Shown here piece after piece: positions 5,051-59,004 of a DNA stretch of 64,000 nucleotides. The stretch covers positions 4,989,375 through 5,053,374 of the forward strand of contig CAIIXF020000005.1 of assembly GCA_903813345.2 (NCBI GenBank). Direction: 5' to 3'. The notes under the pieces are model-generated. The model did no database searches and was not told the DNA's origin. It saw only the letters and a program-made list of their open reading frames with translations. The stretch's first letter is position 1. Every line of letters begins with the position of its first letter. Origin of the DNA: Owenia fusiformis. Taxonomy: Eukaryota > Annelida > Polychaeta > Sabellida > Oweniidae. The position numbers and the translations under genes are program-made.

Positions 5051-5278
5051 TTAGCACCAGCGGAAAGGAACAGCCCTTGGGCGATCGGCACCTTCCTTGA
5101 CTAGAGGCTTGTGGAACTCACGACCAGGTCTGGCGTGGATTTGGGCCCAGCAGTGTTCGCAATAATATTGCAGACAGGTTACGTTAGCACAGAAAAATGG
5201 TGCAAATTTGCCACCACATCGTGCTCCTTGACATTCATCGCACATCTGATCATCCAGAACGTATGGCTTTACTTCAAC
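5051..5278 (-). CDS. CPEB2/3/4: CPEB terminal coding exon: end of RRM2 and ZZ zinc domain
   Basis: The exon starts after a CAG acceptor in a full codon (VEVKPYVLDDQ, the RRM2-ZZ junction) and ends with TAA; its length is 228 nt, a multiple of three. The ZZ domain reads CDEC, then RCGGKFAPFFCANVTC, LQYYCEHCW and the histidines of IHARPGREFHKPLV. These supply the Cys/His ligands of the cross-braced two-zinc fold. In known CPEBs this domain contacts the RRMs and partner proteins. The C-terminus is FRWC, where vertebrates have FRWS or FRWN. No downstream coding exon is needed. Identification rests on long near-identity to the vertebrate domain. Confidence 0.97.
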   Translation of the reverse strand, partial: VEVKPYVLDDQMCDECQGARCGGKFAPFFCANVTCLQYYCEHCWAQIHARPGREFHKPLVKEGADRPRAVPFRWC

Positions 5279-8200
5279 CTGGATAAGAAATCAATGTTCT
5301 CCATTAAATATTGCTAAATAATTAATATATTTTCCAATATATTTTGGCACGTTTTCAGAAATGGTAAAAACTTTTATTGTTATTGATATGCAGTGTACTA
5401 TAGTACTCTATGACATTTGAAACATAAATTCACTCCGATATAAAACTAAATAAAATCAACCCCTAGTTGGCCCTTATACCTCAGTCACATTTGATCTACG
5501 GCAATCTTATGTCTGCGGTTGCTACCAAAATTTGAGAGAAATATGCAGCACAAAATTTAAGACAAGCAATATTATGTAGATTTTCTATATCGATTTTGTG
5601 AAGCTATGGCCGCCATAATGCCGCCATAGAGCAAATGTGACAGAGGCTTTATACATGTAACAAACACATACCCTCTTATCAATGTCTCCATGTTGTAGTT
5701 GCACAAATCTAGCACTGATAGCTGCAATGTAGCTCTGCTGGTTGGAGAATGCAACCCTCCCGGCACCCTTGGGATATTTCAGCTCAGGGTCTGTGTCAAT
5801 ACCAGCATAGCAAACTCCACCATACAATCTGTCCATGATCATAGCAAGCTCAACTGAAATAAGATACAATCCACGGTGAATTATCATTATTGGGGATGGG
5901 GATGTAAGGATATCTATTCCTATAACCCAATGGCTATATAATACAGTCATATAGAAATAAAAGGTGATCAGTTTTCAGTATTTCTTATATTGTTGAAAGG
6001 GAAATCCTTATAGTCCTATCAATATGGCTGCTGACCTGACTAAGAGTGAAGCAGAAGTCATGAGTTCAGTAGAATGCACAAAAGATTACATAGAAAACAA
6101 GTCTTCTGTGAGGCGAAACCGTGCGAAACAACAAAACAACACGATGTCCTTCAGGCACATAATCTATCAATGCAAAACAAGGAAACTACTTACTAAACTG
6201 ACAATGCCTAGAGCTTTATAGACTGGGTATGATTCCAGTTAATTAATATATACTGATTTCTATTATTTGTTCTCTGCTCAGAAAATCATCCTTTGCAATA
6301 TACAGAAGTCGTAATATAGAAGTTCCAGTAACATAAGTTCACCTGTTGTGTCATATACCTTATCCTTACATACCATGTTTTTGAAATTTGAAACTCAAAT
6401 TAACAAATTATTTTTATTTTACTGGAAATGGCCTATTTCATGAATAATCTCAAAGCACAACTGACAGAACTTTCAGAAAACATGAACAGAAATGTGTAAC
6501 GTCCTTATAAGTGTCACATATACTGACCACTGTAACGCCCTACAGCAGTACTTTTAAACAGAGAGTAGATCATTAATACAGGACAATGCTACAGGGCCCA
6601 TATCTATAACAATTTGAACTAAATATGACCCTAATGTATCAATTTGACTGTCAGCATCTGAGAAGATTGCCATTAATTAAGTAAAGTCCATTGAAATATT
6701 GATCGAAGTGTCAATGAATTATGGACAGTTAAATGATAATTAGAGGAATAAGTACTGGATATCCGTCAAATATGAAATAATTTTTTCTCACTTTGCTTGA
6801 CTGGTTAGTATTGATTTATGAATTGGATAAGGTTCAATACACAATAAGAAGTTAAATCACAGTACACTTCTGTATTTGCACAATGTAATTAATCAAACAT
6901 ATTTACTAGGATATCCTATGATTTTTGAAGGAAATAATATTACTAGAACTCCCTATCTATTCTATGGTTCAAACAATACACACATCGTAAATATTCCGCC
7001 TAATATTTAGTTTCAAATAACAAGGCATTAACATACAAAATGTCATCACATGCCATTTGTTACAGATGCTGAATGCTAACACCAACCACCGACCATCAAC
7101 CACTGAACACTGTCCACAAAAAGTTGGAGCTATAACAATATGTCAATTTATCCTATGATGTTATGATATAAATAAACTCAGAACACGGTTTAGACTGGAC
7201 ATGATACTAATAATGTACTCTGAGAGGAAAGATAGTTCATTGATTTTGCAAAACTCCCGAATGAGTAATTAACAGAGGTCATTTGAAAAATGGTCAAATC
7301 TATGGATGAACAACGACTGGAGACTTGAAAATGACAAGGCAGGCCTAAATGAATTAAAAAACTGTCAAAAAGGCATCCTTTGATTGACATTGCAATTAAG
7401 AAAGACAGTCCAAATATTAGGAGCTCAATAGTGGCAATAATATGGTCAAAAACTATATCTGATCTCAACTTTTAATAAGTAATGCTGTAATTGTACACAT
7501 ATAACATTTTATTTGCTGACATATATATAACATTTTCATTTCATAATTTGACCACAATGATCATCCAGCATATTATATGAACAAACTGAATGACTGACTT
7601 TCATCTGATATTAACTTAAAGTTTTTTTTTCAACTAACATGTACATGTTGATGAAAAATATAAACTTAGATCGATAAGTTTGATGACTGACTGAATAATA
7701 GCCATCAATTAAAAAGTGATTATATCTTCATGACCATTTGGAATGGATAGTCGTAATTTGCATAAGTAATTAAAGAAGACAATGTACTTAACAAGTTCAA
7801 CTTGACCTGGGAAAACATCCACACTGTGCGGGATTGAGGTAACTGTATAAATATAATTAAATCTTTGGGTTGGAATACCCTGTAACGAATGCCTACACTT
7901 AAAGGAAGTATAAACAGTTTTTCATTAATATTTATGAATAAACCACTCTAATAGTAAAATGACTACACACACAATTAGCTATTAACTCTTCTCCCCAGGC
8001 TTAAAATTTGATTAAAGTCACATAGGGAAATGGGTGTACTTTATAAAGGCAAGGAGGGGTTACCTAAACATGGTCCCGCACATTGGCTCAAACGTGAAAG
8101 AAGAGGTCACTGTTCTAATTGATTAATCAAACACCGAATAAGTGATAAATCTAACTAAGAGTTAATTAATAAGACATGTTTCTCTGCACCCTCATGCATA

Positions 8201-11200
8201 AGGCTTTAGTAATATACTCGACGCAATGTTGACAGTCGACTTACCAGCTCTTAGCGGTCGAGGAACGCCACCAACGAAGATAGTTTTCCTCGGATCTAAT
8301 GGCTGAGAGCCATCCATGACAAAGTCAGAGTCATTCAGATTCCAGGGCCTGATCTGAACCTAAAAAATAAATGTTATATTACAAATACCCTGTATAACGG
8401 GGCAATTTCTTTTCATGGTCGGATTAGCACATCATTTGAGATCTAAAAAAATTATGGGATGGATTCGAGAATATGTGTTTCTTCTGTCTATTATTAAGTA
8501 ATTGTTCTTGAATATAATATAATATAAATTGCATTTTTAAGTTTAATTTTAAAATCAAATCAATAGAGTTCAACAACTCTCACATTTGTAAGATATATTA
8601 TATATTGCATGTACTTTACATACAAGTAATTTGATGAGAGTCCTAATCATGAATTCCCATCTCAAATGATTCATGAATTTATAACGAAGAAACATCCGTT
8701 TAATGGAAGCGTTTCATCATTCTAATCCCCACACAAAATTAACATTATGCGCAACTGATGTGTTTTACTATCAACCATAGAGAAAATCAATAATGGTGCA
8801 CCCTTGACACCAATCCCTGGTGTTAGACCATCCTGACACATAATAACATACAGCAAAACTTCTTGAAATTGAACACTGCTACGGTGAGATAAATGTTCTA
8901 TTCCTGTAACATTTTTAGGTTCTCAAATATAAAATTGAGGGAGTTAATTGGACTTCAAAAATCTGGTGCCACAAAAATTCACATTTCTAGGTTAAGAGTA
9001 TGCAATTTGAAACTGAAAATGTTCACATTCTACAATTTCAGGTCTATGTGGACATATATACTATGGAACAGAGACATTAAATTATTCACTTTTCAAGATG
9101 TAACCATAGAGAGGTGTTCACAAACTGAAGGTTCCCTGTAAATAAACTAGAATTGCCCCATTTCTAATATAGTCAGCAATGTCACCAAGCACTTTTGTGG
9201 GAGAGATGGGAGGATTTCATATTTCCCAGAAGAGAATGACATATTTGAACAAGAAAATGCAGATTCAATTTTCATCCGCTTTTCTGAATTGCTTTCATTG
9301 AGATAAATGATTAAGATAAATGATTTATATACTTAATACAAAGATCCCTTGTATGAAATGAGCTAATTTTCTTCAATTCATTTATTTATTTCCAATAAAG
9401 GTTTAAAATACATGTTGAGGTGAAAGGCACCCTATTGGGCATATTATCATTCATTCCAAATAGAAGGATTAAACCTAGTTCAAGGTATGAATATGTACAA
9501 ATAAACACAAAATAAAGAATTGTGGGTCTGGTCTCCTGTGGGGAACCATGGAAGATAATCCATGACATAATACAAAATGCCCCATTTACAGAATATATTC
9601 GCTATTTCAAGGAAATAATTTATCACCCTTTTCTAGGATTTTAAACAATTTCCTGAGAGCTAAACATACAACAGGAAAACACACAAATCCAAATAAACCA
9701 TATGAACTACAAAAAATCAAAGTATGAACATTTGTATCTCCACATTTCATTATTTATAATCTCTGATTACACCATTTTAATCGCAGTGTTGTAGGCAGGC
9801 ATGAGTTGATATTAAACAGAAGATTACATCAAGGCAAAAACTGGTAACAAGTGAGTGATTGCAAAAAGCTCACCATGTGAGCTAAAAATCTGGGTAAAAA
9901 TCAGTTCATATGAGCCAAAACAGACATTAAACCTATTTGCAGTTTTCAAGTCTTTAGATTATCAAACATATGATTCAAAGCACGACTCTCAAAATATTTA
10001 GCCTGTGTATACTTACTGGTTTATCCTTCATGGTAGGACTAGAGACACACCAGTATAGTTTACTGTCATCCATGACACAGGCCTCTATCAATGCCTGAAC
10101 AGACATCTCATCTTGAAACAGCAAGAAACAATAGCCTGCAAATATAGGTAAATAATACCAATTACAATTCTTATCTTCATTTAAGTGTATCTTAAATGAA
10201 TGCTCCAATTTTGTGTGCCGCTGTTATAAAAGCATAGTTTCCAAATAAACAAATAAAAATATATATATAAACACACATTTATAGACCTAGAGAAATCTGC
10301 TATGTACATGTACTTTGATGGACTTGTATAAGCACTTTCACAAGATGATATTCCATAAGTCATTTTGGGCTTCGTGGAATATCACTTCTGAAAGATATTC
10401 GTCTAAAGTAGAACAAAATATTTGGGCAATATCATTATAGGACTGCATCTTAAAATGTCAACCCAATGTTGTTGCACCCATTAATGACATGAATACCGCC
10501 TACTGCCTAATGATTAAGTCTACGTGACTTGGATGAAGGGCAACGATGTCCAACATCCAGTATTTTAAAAGATCTGACCTTAAAATGCTGAACTGGTCAA
10601 TCTAATCAAAGAACATTTCCTAAAAAGTTTCAAAAAATGACAGCAATTTTCTAACATTTTCACAATGAGCATGGACTACTTTGTTGATGACTTTCTTCAA
10701 ATTACAACTCCTTTTATATTCCACTTTATATTCTAAAAACACTTGATTATATTTCATACATTGGTAAGGGTATTAGAGAAGATAAGAAAAAATCCCAAGT
10801 CTTATCAAAAAGGTCAATTATCTGGTATCGCTAAACATGCCAAGGCAAAGGACTTGAAATCTTCAGACATATAACTGATATAGCCAAGGTGGAGGTAAAC
10901 TAGTTCAAGGATAATCCTCAAAGAGATTTCAAACAAAGTGATCAAAAAGAAACACAGGTTTCACCTCATTCAATTAAGCTATAATAGAGAGATGATTGGC
11001 CTTTGTGCAACAAATCTTTAATTCAACAGATTCCTATTGGAAGAGTTATTTTGTGAAGACTATCCTATATGCTCCAAAGCAAAAGATAATATTAGATAGA
11101 TAAAACCATCAGATCTTGAGCAAAGCTTAGGAGAAAAAACTAATTGGATCAAAGTGGGTAATATAATATTAAGAAGTTCACAGTTGATAAAACTAACTGC

Positions 11201-14200
11201 CTCCAACAGAAATTTCAAAAAAGAAAAAAATTAGATTCCTAACCACTTGCCCATTCTGAGTATCTCATGAATGACTGGCTTAATGTCATGCTTGATGTAC
11301 AAAATCATGAGTGGATAGACACACTTGTGATTGCATTAATAATTTAAAATCTACTTAAACACACGGCCACTAAAGTGAAGATGGTCAGTTATGCCCCTGA
11401 GACTCTTTCTAACAAGGCATGCGCATGTAAGAGTGCAATACAGAAAGATTAAAGTGCTATAATGATTTGTTGTTTTAGATATTCCATCATCCACCAATTC
11501 ACCATAGAAATATTAAAATATTAATATCAACATTTTTATACAAAATCAGCCAATTTCCTGTGTCTCTTAGTTGCCCTTAGACCTCTGACCAACCATCCCA
11601 AAATGCATCTGATGATGTCAATCCAGAGCACAACAGCCCCTAATTGGATATATTACAAGAAAACACTACTGTGATTTCAACGCAAGGTTAAAACAATCCA
11701 TCAGTAGATCAACCATGAGCAAGCCTTGGCGCTATTCTAATACAATTATCAAACAATTTCCTTTACGTCCAAAACAGATTAAACCAATTTGTGAGAGTGA
11801 GAACAATTGTTTTTTCAGATAATCAAGTAGTGGGAGGACTATTTCAAAGAGTACCTCAGCATCAACAAAGGCTAATAAATCAACAACTTGGCCTTTCTAA
11901 AATCAAAACAACGTCTCTTAAATCAGGGCCCTTCAGATTCGAAATGTTCCCCTGATCTTGTTTCATTTATACATTTATCCATTTACTGTCCCTTTTAACT
12001 ATTTGAGCATTACCCTATGGATTTTAATCCAGATAAAGTTTAACAAGTGGTGATGGCCTTTGTTGAACAAGAAGGAGTGGGGAATGTTCCATTTGCCCCT
12101 TGGTGGTTCCTCTTCAATCAGTTAAGCATTATCAACGGAACCTTAATTTGGATAAATCGAAACATCAACTGGTGGTATTTGAAGGACAGAATTCTTTTAG
12201 AAGTGAGGAATTTACATTCACCCCTCAACAGTCCCTTTTATCTCTAACAGAAAGCCTACCCAATAGAAACAAAGTTGAACATTTGGATGATTGGTTGGCC
12301 TTTAAAGTGACACTGTCTACAATTTTTTGATATTTTTGAAAAAATGATGATCTCACGTATCCTTTTACCTACATGCTGTTATCAAGCCAATTATTGAGAC
12401 TTCCAGCAAAAAGATGGTGAGGACTATTTCAACTACAGAACAAGGCACAGACGTGAACAATATCGTACCTAAAACACAGCATGTATGTAGAAACATCCCT
12501 GAAAATTTCAGATGAATCCCTCAAATGGTTTGGCTGAAAACCTGTAGACAAGTCTTGAAAGTGAAGATTTTAGCAAAATGGCCACCTTAAAATTTACCAA
12601 GAATGCCCAAAAACTAATCAGTTCTTAACGTTGATATGTAGAAACATCCCTGAAAATTTCAGATGAATCCCTCAAATGGTTTGGCTGAAAACCTGTAGAC
12701 AAGTCTTGAAAGTGAAGATTTTAGGACGGAAAATCCAAAATGGCCACCTTAAAATTTACCCAGAATGCCCAAAAACTAATCAATTCTTGACGTTGATATG
12801 TAGAAACATCCCTGAAAATTTCAGATGAATCCCTCAAATGGTTTGGCTGAAAACCTGTAGACAAGTCTTGAAAGTGAAGATTTTAGGACGGAAAATCCAA
12901 AATGGCCACCTTAAAATTTACCCAGAATGCCCAAAAACTAATCAGTTCTTGACGTTGATATGTAGAAACATCCCTGAAAATTTCAGATGAATCCCTCAAA
13001 TGGTTTGGCTGGAAACCTGTAGACAAGCTGAAAAGTGAGACGCCGCCCGCCTGCCGCCCGTCAAGCTGACTACAATATCGTACCTCTTGTTAGGTACGAT
13101 AAATAAAAACCAGAAAGTACCTTTATAAGGCAAATTGTACTTAGCATAATCTAAAGCCCACATATTGACTAGGGAGTACATTAAACTTTGAGATTGATCA
13201 TCCAGTTGACATAAGAAGCAAGTGTAAAGTGTCCCGAAGGATGTGATTTCCCCTCTTTGCCCAAAAGTGACGGATTGACTCTATATCTATTATGCCACAT
13301 GCCCCCATAGGATGAAATCAACAGCATTTCCAGTTCCTACATCCGCATAGTGCAGTCTCTGAGTGAGTAATTTAAGATCATCGCATGAATATTTAAGCGA
13401 ACTTGGAGTTATGTGCAGATTTGGTTAAAATGACACAGGCGGTTCAGCTGAATGACATTAACTCACTCTCCATTGCATTAGCTATTGACTTAACTATATT
13501 GGAGTTAAAATCAATTATTGTATGATGGCTATACTTGAGTATTGTGAGGAATGTATAAGTATATCCAAGCTGTTCACATATGTAAAGAATTTTTTTCATT
13601 TCCAGAAAACATTTTAAAGTCAATGTGTTCACATGCATACAATTATTGCAATATATGTACAGCGGTTTCATTTTTTGGTACAAGCTGCATATACAAGACT
13701 GCATATGTGGGCGTCAAATGAATTATCAGCCAGGTGAATGTGATATACGACCCACATTGTGACTATCACTTGATTAAATAGCCAGTAGTAAAACCTTTAT
13801 TTCAGTACAATACCTGCATATCTCTGATTTCAATTGGGAATTGTTTAAATGTATGAATCAATCAATCTTCTAAAATTGGATGAACACCATACCATAATAT
13901 GAAATACAGAGATGACCATGCCAACATCATCGCAATGACCTCCCTTGTAATTTCACTCAATAGAATTTGATTAATACACCTACTTTAATTCACCCAGACA
14001 AAATTGTTATCATTCTGGGAAAAGGACTGATGGTTTTTATGATTCCAATGCCCCTCGATGCCCTATAAAAGCAGTTTGGATCTAATTTCATCAATAATAC
14101 AATATTTCAATTCCAATCTGGCTTTGACCAGGGTCTCCATACGTTCTAAGTGTGCCCATAAAATGTAGCTCTGTTTTCAATCATATCTGCCTATAACAAA

Positions 14201-17200
14201 TGTCTCACTCGGTTCACCTCAAATGATCAATAAAGCTTCAACAATGTTTTAGGTTATTCAGAATTCGTATCTGATGCAACTTGATTTGATCACCAACGAA
14301 TGGATAATCAGTGACATTTCTGGCAATTGATATAAATACAAAATACGCAGCAAAAAGATACATTGGTGAACATGAATGTGTTACTTTGTGTAACAATGGT
14401 GCTATTCTTTTGCTAACTTCTAAATTCTATATGTAAAACATAACTACAATTTCACAATGAACATAGATACATACCTTTTGGGGGGAAGTATGACTTGCTT
14501 TCAGCCTTGTGTGGCCAATCTACCACTAGAGCTCCAAATCTCCTGAACGCAGCAGTTATTTCCTCTGTAAACATAGACACATCAAATCATATAGAGGAGG
14601 GAGGGAGGGCCTATAGCGATCAAGATACCCAAACTGGCTTATGCAATGTCTAAACCAGTCTTATAATCATTAAAGGTAAATTGATCATTATAGAGAACAT
14701 GAGTACATCTTTTTTATTTAAGCAAGGACATACAATTCAAATTGGTACTAACAGACAAAAAGCCACGCTTCCACCCAAATCTGGAGCACTTCTTATAAGG
14801 ATGAAGTACCAACTTAGGTTACCCAGACCCAAAAAGGGAGAAAGCATAACATATAATACTTTTATGAATGTGAAAATTGAGAATGAAAACAAATATAAAA
14901 TCAATGAGATTTTTCTACTATAAAACAATGTATGGTATAGATATTGCTATTGAACATTGTTCATTTGATGCAGTATATCTAATAGGAAAATTCTCACAAA
15001 AATAAATAAAATTCAAATACATGTAAATTATGTTTGTTCAAATCACAATCTAAGATTTAAAATAGAATCTGTAATATACCAAACAAAGTATAGTGTACAT
15101 ATTGCGTTTGTCAGTCTCTTTTCTTAACAATGCAAGATTTTTTAATGTGATACAACAACATCTGTAATCAATATGTCTTCTAGAATGCCAATCAAAGTGA
15201 CATTAAAAGAAAGCAATACCTTTATGTATCATAAATCTATTAATGGAATGTCAAGATTTTTTATGTGTTTTAAAAAATGAACGCAATCAGTAAAGAAATA
15301 ATCAGGCAATGTTCCAAGGCATCAGTTTGACTGGGATCTTTGTCAAAAGGGCTGTGGGTATTTTTGTTTGCTTGACAGCTTTTCAGAAACAATGATTCAT
15401 TCTGTTTTTTAAATGACAAGGGTTATAAAAACTGCAACACAAAGCATAAAAATGATCACTTGTAAGCTAAATAAATACTGACACAATGGAATCATAACAT
15501 GAAATTGTTAATATCAACATAAAGCATATCAGAAAAATCATATAAATTATGTTTCAAAACAATTCACAAAGATAACAAACGAAAACTGATCTCAACATTT
15601 TGGTATTTCTAACATCGTAATGAATGAACACAAACTGTGTTCAATGAATGAACACAAACTGTGTTCAATGAATGAACACAAACTGTGTTCAATTAACAAA
15701 CGGTCAACTATTCTAATTTTCTAGTTAGAGATAACCAAATATAATTGAACTCAAAAAACTAAAACAAAACCTACCCTCGTCACTGTCAGGGGGGAGGCCT
15801 CCCACAAAGACCTTCTTTGAGTACAGCTCATTTGGTGAAAGGCTTTGGGAGTTGGGTGAGCCTTGGGACATGGAACTTAACTGCTGGATCAAGTTATCTG
15901 TAGGGTATAATAAAACATAATGCTAGTTTCTAGTATACTAGACATGCAATAGGTGGCATGCCACACAGCAGCAGCCATATTGGGAGCATACAGTGTGGGT
16001 ACAACCACAGTGACACCAGGGAGCATACACAATGTGGTGGTATGGTATTTGAGGGGGTGAAAACAGGCATGAAGTCAGCAATACATCTCCTAAATGCAAA
16101 CTAAACAACAGTGCAAGCTATGGTATACAACAGATTCACCAGTAGTGTCTGTTATATACCACAGTAATAACTAGACAGCCTAAAAGAAAACACCAATGGG
16201 CCACCTACCCTCATCAATATCAGGCGGCAAACCACCGACAAACACTTTCCGAGAGAATCTCTCGATATGCTCAGCACCACCTATTAGTGAGTTAGGTGAT
16301 CCGCTATTGGACGAATTAATATTCGGAACGAGTTGATCCAGCGACCCGTCGTCCAATAGCGAGTGGCTGCTTGATTCATCTCCCAAACTCGGGAAAGGGG
16401 ATTTCCCTGCAACATTAAAAATTCACATTTTAATCTCACTATGACGAAGCAACATAACATTGGTGAAATGTCACATAGATGCACTGGATTCTTAAACAAG
16501 CTTCAACATAGCTGTACAAATAAATATATCAGATTGGTCCAAAATATCAATGCCCATCAAAAAACTGTTGTAACTGCGTTAACCCCAATTAATGTAACAA
16601 AATGCCAATAGTTGATTTACATTAAGAAACAGCCTCAACTCACAACCAATAAGAATCATTTATTAAATTGATGGCATTGATATCCTGATACAACCCCTAT
16701 AATCAATGCATAAAAGTTAAGTTGTGTAGAAATATGCTGCATGTATTGCTAGCATTGTCCACAATTACATAATTACTTGGAAAATTACATTCATACATAT
16801 TAATGGCACAAGCAGATGGTATTCCTATTATAGAAAATTGGTCTTATACTAATGAGAATAGAGTTTTTCATGACATGATCTTAGCAAATAAAGAACTCAT
16901 AGCTTATATTACGCCAGGTATAGTCGTAACATATCAACATTATACTGTCGAGGAATGGAGAAATTCATCCTGTAATACAAAACCCAGTCTTATTATACAT
17001 AATACAGTACCATACACAACAGAACCAATTATGGTAGTTTAACATCCCAACATTTGCCCCATACCATTGTATACTAACAACAACAAATAGATAATGTTTC
17101 ACATATAGCATGTCATACACATCGTGACAATGGCGTAAGTGTTAAATTGACTGACATCAACCAACATCTAGGGGCAACAATGCAACACCCTGGACATAGG

Positions 17201-31090: not shown

Positions 31091-31600
31091 TTTGGAACAG
31101 ACGATGTGGTACAGCATGGACACACAGTAGGCAAAACAAACAATTTTACAATAAGATGTCCCCCACCCCCATCACACTAAATACAAAAATTATAAATTAA
31201 TTCATTTAAAAAATGAATGCTCAAAATTAGCCGCATGGTGGCGAACAGTGCGCCTACACAGCTTATGTGACAGCTACTTTAGCTACTTAAAGGCTGAAAA
31301 TATAGTATCATGATATCCGACAACATATTTTGAGTGAATAAGCTAGGGCTTCATTGGGTTATCTCTCAAACTTAAAGAAGTTGAGATTTATTTAACTCTT
31401 GCAAAGAGTACTCCTTTCTTGCCCTATTCACTAAACCTGCACCACTAAACATCAAATCAGTTGATATATTCACTTAACCTAAAATGTAAAGTCTGAGTTC
31501 GAGTTAAGGCTAATGAAAAGAACATATTTAAAAATCTATTACATCATAAAGAATAACCTTTCCCTGCCCTCCCCCTACTAGAGATAAAATAACAACAACC

Positions 31601-32005
31601 AGGTAAAGAGTGACCCAGTATATATACATCAGGTATAGAGTGACCCAGTATGTATACATCAGGTATAGAGTGACCCAGTATGTATACATCAGGTATAGAG
31701 TGACCCAGTATATATACATCAGGTATAGAGTGACCCAGTATGTATACATCAGGTATAGAGTGACCCAGTATGTATACATCAGGTATAGAGTGACCCAGTA
31801 TGTATACATCAGGTATAGAGTGACCCAGTATGTATACATCAGGTATAGAGTGACCCAGTATGTATACATCAGGTATAGAGTGACCCAGTATATATACATC
31901 AGGTATAGAGTGACCCAGTATGTATACATCAGGTATAGAGTGACCCAGTATATATACATCAGGTATAGAGTGACCCAGTATGTATACATCAGGTATAGAG
32001 TGACC
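31601..32005. repeat. 30-bp minisatellite, about 13 copies
   Basis: The unit is GTATAGAGTGACCCAGTA followed by T[GA]TATACATCAG. Apart from the edge units, the copies differ only at one G/A position. Because 30 is divisible by three and the unit lacks stops in some frames, long repetitive open frames appear on both strands; they have no start context, no homology and should not be read as genes. Near-identity implies a young or actively homogenised VNTR. Confidence 0.97.
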
Positions 32006-43804: not shown

Positions 43805-44192
43805 TACTTTGTGTCTACATGTATCACACATGTCTATGTGTAACAACGCTGTGTCTATATGTAACACTCATGTCTATGTGTAACAACTCTTGTGTTTATG
43901 TATAACAATGCTGTGTCTATGTATAACCCACATGCATATCTGTAACACACATGTCTATGTGTAACAACTCTTGTGTTTATGTATAACAATGCTGTGTCTA
44001 TGTATAACCCACATGCATATCTGTAACACACATGTCTATGTGTAACCACTCTGTGTCTTTGTGTAACACAGATGTCAATGTGTAACAACTCTGTGTTTAT
44101 GTGTAACCCACATGTCTATCTGCAACATACATGTCTATGTGTAAAAGCTCTATGTCTATGTGTAACACACATGTCTATGTGTAACATAAATA
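43805..44192 (+). repeat. ~20-bp satellite with an ~81-bp higher-order unit
   Basis: Monomers of 18-21 bases vary around TGTCTATGTGTAACAC[AT]CA. One block of four monomers (from 43871) repeats almost exactly from 43952, giving a spacing of 81. The 77-codon frame on the minus strand is a by-product. Bounds are approximate because edge units are diverged. Confidence 0.9.
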
Positions 44193-58083: not shown

Positions 58084-59004
58084 GTCTTTTTTAAAGTCAA
58101 CATTAGGTGTTAAATCACAAACTGCAAGCCGACCTAGGGAGATACCCATTATCAATCAAAATTGAATCTTACATTATAAAATACTGGCTTAGATTTCAAA
58201 ATTTTCCAGAGAGTAATGTATTAAATCAAGCATACTTATATGATAGGGGTAATCAAGAGTTAGGGTTTAAAAGTTGGTCAAGCAAGGTTTATGATATACT
58301 CAGAAAATGTGATTTACTAGATTATTGGAATAATCAAAATCTGGATACTGAAAATCTGGTGAATATGGTTGAAAAGAAATTAAAAATATTGTTTGTAGAA
58401 AAATGGAAAAATGATTTGAACACTTATCCTATATTGAGAACGTACAAATTATTTAAAAATGATTTTGGTAAAGAATTGTACTTGAAACTAGATAATAAAA
58501 AGTATAGATTGGCTACAAGTAGATTTAGAATGAGTTCTCATCAGTTAGCAATTGAGACTGGAAGACATACAAAGCCAAAACCAAAACCTTTAGAGGAAAG
58601 AGTATGTAATATTTGTAAAGATGTAGAGGATGAATGTCATTTCTTTTTAGCTTGTACAAAAAATGATGAGAATAGGCAAATATTATATACAAAAGCCTGT
58701 GAAATTTTACCTAACTTGGATTTACAAAGTGAAAATTTATTTGTCAATCTTATTTCTAGTAAAAATGTAACCTTGCAAAGACATATTGGCAAATTCATTT
58801 ACCATTCATTTAAGAATTTAGCGTGGTCATAATGCATTGTGTGTGCACCACACTATTATTGTTACCTTATATATTTTTATATATTTTTTGTAGTTTTAGT
58901 TTAGTTGGTGTTTTGTAGTTTAGATATGTAGTCTACCATAGTTCTGACTAATGTAATCATGTTATGATACTATATGTCAATAAAAGTTATATAAAAGTTA
59001 TATA
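58084..59004 (+). mobile_element. 5'-truncated LINE (non-LTR retrotransposon), 3' end only
   Basis: The insert holds the C-terminal part of a LINE ORF2 and its 3' UTR. It ends in an ATAAAAGTTAT-type simple tail and is flanked by TATCTTCT at 58076-58083 and 59005-59012, a candidate 8-bp target duplication. Endonuclease and the catalytic part of the reverse transcriptase are missing, as is usual after incomplete reverse transcription. The open frame is intact over 241 codons, so the copy is fairly young. About 23 bases at the left edge do not fit the protein frame. Confidence 0.85.
58107..58832 (+). pseudogene. LINE ORF2 C-terminal fragment with zinc knuckle
   Basis: A 241-codon frame opens at a GTG directly after an in-frame TAG, so this is not a genuine start. 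LGRYPLSIKIESYIIKYWLR near the beginning and RLATSRFRMSSHQLAIETGR at residues 134-153 are typical of the region after the reverse transcriptase in many invertebrate LINE proteins. They are followed by a zf-RVT-like CNIC...ECHFFLAC knuckle (Cys167, Cys170, His178, Cys183). That it is LINE-derived is secure; the exact clade (CR1/L2/Jockey-like) is not. It has no host function that I can see. Confidence 0.88.

Follow-up and report, generated by a model that had tools for sequence, protein, structure and literature searches.

Two adjacent exons of a CPEB2-4 gene in the annelid Owenia fusiformis raise the question of whether they serve as alternative beginnings of the first RRM and, if so, what the choice between them would change in the protein. 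We analysed a window of 64,000 nucleotides (contig CAIIXF020000005.1), which carries the gene's 3' portion on its minus strand. The RRM1 peptide encoded by exons A and C matched CPEB4 (2mki, E 4.2e-28) and CPEB3 (2dnl, 5.4e-24) far better than CPEB1, which was matched only at 4.3e-7, and the gene is therefore of CPEB2-4 type. The assembled protein matched RRM_7, RRM_1 and CEBP_ZZ in Pfam, with one RRM_7 stretch per form, on RRM1, and RRM2 was recognised by eye from exons E and F; the architecture is that of CPEB2-4 (Orb2) proteins, with two tandem RRMs and a C-terminal ZZ zinc finger. Exons A to G have AG/GT borders throughout and G closes with a stop. The features of the gene are:

Exon U, 60333-60222, minus strand: 112 nt, HPHDRNSLDSMRFPNLETHLLDIMRSGMGDGQDQQYK plus 1 nt; upstream CPEB exon.
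Microexon M, 18657-18634, minus strand: 24 nt, ARNIGRRR; phase 1 in and out.
Exon A, 16406-16209, minus strand: 198 nt, canonical linker GKSPFPSLGDESSSHSLLDDGSLDQ...ERFSRK and RRM1 strand 1 KVFVGGLPPDIDE.
Exon B, 15897-15775, minus strand: 123 nt, short linker DNLIQQLSSMSQGSPNSQSLSPNELYSK and KVFVGGLPPDSDE.
Exon C, 14475..14564, minus strand: 90 nt, EITAAFRRFGALVVDWPHKAESKSYFPPK of RRM1, common to the A and B forms.
Exon D, 10017..10135, minus strand: 119 nt, GYCFLLFQDEMSVQ..., second half of RRM1.
Exon E, 8245..8359, minus strand: 115 nt, end of RRM1 and start of RRM2.
Exon F, 5672..5853, minus strand: 182 nt, RRM2.
Exon G, 5051..5278, minus strand: 228 nt, CEBP_ZZ domain and stop.

For exons A and B, what an earlier note on this DNA had stated of position, length (198 and 123 nt), phase, encoded peptide and splice borders (AG at the acceptors, GT at the donors) was confirmed throughout. 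The two exons are homologous, lie in tandem, have lengths divisible by three and are equal in phase, each finishing a codon begun by one base and leaving one base. As the same note had proposed, either of them completes RRM1 with exon C, A-C-D-E-F-G and B-C-D-E-F-G both being open to the same stop; A-B-C-D-E-F-G is also open to this stop, and skipping both A and B is likewise in frame. When the splice sites were scored with weight matrices taken from general knowledge, the donors of A (AGG/gtaggtgg) and B (AGG/gtaggttt) were both placed at the 99.3 percentile of the 3663 GT sites of the minus strand, and the acceptors at the 98.5 (A) and 90.3 (B) percentiles of its 3291 AG sites. The acceptor of exon B is thus weaker than that of A, yet it is within the range of the gene's other exons (exon F, 88.5 percentile).

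A search of the window with the exon A peptide found exon B at E 1.9e-9, the next match being at 0.88. In window searches the alignment between the A and B peptides spans 41-43 residues, with E values of 1.9e-9 and 4.1e-9; no third copy of the exon was seen in the window by peptide search, and exons C to G are single-copy there. With the strand left out, the alignment of the two linkers was better than in 4981 of 5000 shuffles, the other 19 being as good. Because the linkers match outside the strand, the pair is a duplication and more than a shared RRM motif, and a tandem duplication is what it most naturally suggests. Taken alone, the strand motif would be weaker proof, since KVFVGGLPPDVDE, nearly the motif of the CPEB exons, is present in a frame of a Pedobacter MAG contig (L002:3110-3340) that by eye encodes an RRM protein. 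No animal relatives were found in bacterial and archaeal contigs, where 2 of 337 stretches were confirmed (L001 and L002), and no relatives in viral contigs (0 of 51 stretches, and 0 of 8 in a second scan). L001 was rejected as a relative, its alignment containing stops and being taken for chance.

In the 16 codons that align, F/Y-S-R/K-K through DE, the two exons differ at 15 bases and 3 residues. The base differences fall 2, 3 and 10 on codon positions 1, 2 and 3, and 10 of the 13 conserved residues use another codon. Synonymous divergence beside an unchanged RRM1 strand, which the earlier note had described, was thus borne out, as third positions hold most of the changes and KVFVGGLPPD is identical. 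The note had also concluded from the codons that B is not a dead copy, and this can be kept only in part. Random placement of the 15 changes gave so few replacements in none of 20,000 trials, a figure that presumes all 15 changes on one unconstrained branch; if B took 7 of the 15, the chance of so few replacements is P 0.13, if 8 of the 15 it is 0.06, and if at least 10 it is at most 0.008. The mostly third-position divergence favours a living copy, but clearly so only if most of the changes lie on B, and with a chance of 13% or 6% for 7 or 8 changes the codon pattern alone is no proof that B is alive. Exon B further retains the linker motif GSPNS, its frame is open over 40 codons, and the donor context GAGGGTAGGT is the same in A and B at 10 of 10 bases. 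Taken together, the view of A and B as tandem, duplicated, phase-matched and coding-like exons of a CPEB2-4 gene, with A as the canonical version, is supported.

The claim that the exons are mutually exclusive fits their tandem order, matched phase and lengths divisible by three, but the frame does not enforce it, as both the A+B form and the skipping form stay open. Pairing of the 311-nt A-B intron and of the 300-nt flanks of the exon pair was not beyond that of shuffled sequences (16, 14 and 32 of 60 as good). Past the B donor, at intron positions +82 to +156, a palindromic 24-nt unit that forms hairpins is present in 3.1 perfect copies (15619..15693, minus strand), whose perfection suggests a young array, and the 165 nt that follow the donor (15610-15774) fold strongly (z -6.44). 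A hairpin at the B donor itself was discarded (z -0.38 alone, 63 of 200 shuffles as good). An imperfect inverted repeat flanks exons A and B (15704-15720 with 16599-16615, 17 nt, 82%).

Other repeats are present in the window: a 162-nt tandem repeat of 2.9 copies with 97% matches in the C-D intron (12574-13038), and tandem arrays at 31600-32005 (30-nt units) and 43810-44186 (19/40/81-nt units), which give long open frames by repetition. A 241-residue open frame on the plus strand (58107-58832) resembles by eye the end of a LINE element; DUF384 was the one Pfam match listed for it, at 16.6 bits, below the 24.6 cut-off. Rfam at gathering thresholds gave no matches in the window, and the tRNA scan found none.

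With regard to what the pair exchanges, the RRM1 strand KVFVGGLPPD is the same in both exons, while the linker of B is 25 residues shorter than that of A. Outside the linker, A and B differ by F/Y and R/K just before the strand and by I/S in the loop after it; A+C matches CPEB4 without a gap, and the Tyr of exon B is the residue that CPEB4 has. The A form scores 132 bits against RRM_7 and the B form 126.8 bits. In human CPEB3, the RRM1 strand is K428-G432 and the helix E440-R449, which places the A/B-C junction at the start of the helix, and five Ser of linker residues 400-412 are reported as phosphorylated (sections of PMC9166367). The pair thus mainly swaps the regulated linker before RRM1 and keeps the strand. 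That the first RRM is switched, as had been claimed, is an overstatement given the identical strand and the close RRM_7 scores, the larger change being in the linker, which is vertebrate-like in A.

Exon U lies about 44 kb before exon A and contains LETHLLDIMRSG; its acceptor and donor are at the 90.4 and 99.1 percentiles, and it leaves 1 nt, compatible with M, A and B. By eye it resembles the nuclear-export-signal region of vertebrate CPEB3. In human CPEB3 this signal is L349-L353 (PMC9166367, in part).

Between U and A we identified microexon M, with acceptor and donor at the 98.6 and 95.5 percentiles. It was searched for with ARTYGRRR, which we take to be the letters of the vertebrate microexon. 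Throughout the 43,815 nt of the U-A interval, no segment of 12-60 nt but M combines AG..GGT borders, the right phase and a terminal RRR. In 500 shuffles, 0.002 such segments were expected per shuffle for a length of 24 nt and 0.016 for the range of 12-60 nt, the GRRR pattern having been set after M was noticed and length, phase and GRRR being given by the vertebrate exon. M has 24 nt, encodes GRRR and stands in frame just before the RSS/KSP linker, as read from the sequence, and is likely the counterpart of the kinase-site microexon of vertebrate CPEB2-4. A strict-score scan for short phase-1 exons found none and missed M itself (donor 1.8 against a threshold of 3.0), so further weak exons may escape such a scan.

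Joined to M, exon A reads ARNIGRRR-GKSPFPSLGDESSSHSLLDDGSLDQ...ERFSRKVFVGGLPPDIDE and exon B reads ARNIGRRR-DNLIQQLSSMSQGSPNSQSLSPNELYSKKVFVGGLPPDSDE. Exon A carries on the mouse order GRRRG-(R/K)S...LDD...DQ as GRRR-GKSPF...LDD...DQ; exon B is without the GKS...LDD part and has GRRR-DNLIQQ instead.

Our favoured reading, to which we give an even chance, is that the tandem duplicates A and B are alternative exons, of which a transcript normally takes one, and that the choice of linker sets the kinase response. Whichever is taken would be spliced to exon C on one side and, on the other, to U directly or by way of M; each provides strand 1 and the beta1-alpha1 loop together with the linker that precedes RRM1. 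It weighs against this reading that double inclusion and skipping both stay in frame, that the acceptor of B is weaker than that of A (90.3 and 98.5 percentiles) and that the donor of M is modest.

Several other explanations have to be set beside it. Exon B may be a non-functional or barely used copy whose frame was kept by chance; the exon is known from one genome, its acceptor is weaker than A's, and with 7 or 8 changes on B the probability of so few replacements is 13% or 6%. We consider this unlikely in view of the frame open over 40 codons, the intact GAGGGTAGGT donor context and the retained GSPNS, and of replacements that are few against the heavily changed third positions (P at most 0.008 with at least 10 changes on B). 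The in-frame A+B form, together with an A-B intron that at 311 nt is long enough to splice, would also suit a cassette B added after A, non-exclusively, so that the protein would have strand 1 twice, with the upstream copy redundant. Constitutive inclusion of both exons should, however, have relaxed A, which retains the canonical KVFVGGLPPDIDE and with C is gapless against CPEB4, and this makes the cassette an improbable explanation.

The view of the earlier note was that the switch alters RNA recognition by RRM1 and hence the target mRNAs. The exon does encode the RNP2 strand, and F/Y and R/K before it and I/S in the loop differ, but with the strand identical, RRM_7 scores of 132 and 126.8 bits and a Tyr in B that occurs in CPEB4, we regard this as quite improbable. 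As the strand is identical and the linker differs, a phosphorylation or linker switch seems likelier than a change of RNA targets. Finally, the ATG in SSMSQGSPNS, in frame in B and absent from A, could start a short protein made of the RNA-binding part, were B a first exon behind an internal promoter. An acceptor of matching phase precedes B, however, and the T at -3 is a poor start context, so that this is the least credible of the explanations and very improbable indeed.

The favoured reading, a linker choice, can be compared with known systems. The linker splicing of vertebrate CPEB2-4 (CPEB3 isoforms a-d, with the exon 7 microexon) concerns the same family and the same place before RRM1. 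An alternative segment of 24 nt is known in mouse CPEB3 (PMC2807433, in part) and is taken here as exon 7 with GRRR, although the parts of PMC4767366 at hand name the B and C regions inconsistently. The mouse site peptides are GRRRGRsSLFPFE and DAFLDDsHGDQAL, and phosphorylation of the site beside GRRR, GRRRGRSSLFPFED, by PKA/CaMKII depends on the spliced exon; isoforms with this exon reach 201% after kainate (same parts of PMC4767366). A 24-nt segment and GRRR beside a PKA/CaMKII-type site are thus common to the mouse gene (PMC4767366, PMC2807433, in part) and this one. Mouse CPEB3 varies by inclusion or skipping of segments (exons 4, 5, 7 and 11 being alternative for the protein), with no duplicated RRM1 exon mentioned in the sections available, whereas in the Owenia gene it is the exon of linker and strand 1 that exists in duplicate. 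Nor do the titles and abstract openings among the matches listed in the open-licence literature mention any CPEB gene in which an RRM1 exon is duplicated. In the mollusc Aplysia, long-term facilitation needs PKA phosphorylation of Thr294 of the CPEB2-4 ortholog ApCPEB4, a residue outside the RRMs and at most a possible counterpart of the exon A site; no variant exon is described there, and the words 'splice' and 'exon' are absent from the main text, as available, of that report (PMC5075418). An RRM altered by tandem exons, in which the earlier note saw a "new layer" of control, is not new as such, because tandem duplicated, alternatively used exons are known to alter the atypical RRM of another RNA-binding protein in exon 3 of U2AF1a/U2AF1b (PMC6821156, in part). 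There the exons differ by seven residues and double inclusion leads to nonsense-mediated decay, whereas double inclusion of A and B is in frame and the linker differs in length. The A/B pair is likely, though unproven, to be a new variant of CPEB2-4 linker splicing.

From the phosphorylation facts of mouse CPEB3 and ApCPEB4, as far as those partial sources give them, we infer that the A form responds to kinases and that the B form is blind to them. In forms with M and A, GRRR-GKS would constitute a basophilic kinase site with R at -3, and A forms, keeping the vertebrate-like LDD..DQ/Ser linker, could be regulated by PKA/CaMKII-type kinases. B forms, with D-N-L after GRRR and a linker 25 residues shorter, would place the same strand 1 on RNA and escape kinase control, and the share of the CPEB pool that answers kinase signalling would be set by which of A and B is spliced in and by the presence or absence of M. 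The candidate acceptor Ser of exon A is followed by Pro (GRRRGKSP); PKA sites directly before Pro are usually poor, and PKA at this site is thus disfavoured. The mouse switch may itself be graded, since the peptide without the spliced exon is suspected to be phosphorylated by PKA at a lower rate (PMC4767366, in part). More tentatively, it is possible, if somewhat doubtful, that the lineage duplicated the exon of linker and strand 1 and, with an ancient M shared with vertebrates, gained a four-state splice code for kinase-responsive or kinase-blind protein of unchanged RNA specificity.

CPEB2-4 proteins have been connected with germ cells and with memory (PMC10284499, PMC5075418, both in part), and alternative splicing of the CPEB linker is known in mammals, its biological significance having been unaddressed before PMC4767366, according to the part of that paper at hand. 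A natural exon pair that swaps the linker and keeps strand 1 would separate kinase control from RNA binding and, provided that M has been read correctly, the CPEB linker was under splice control before vertebrates arose.
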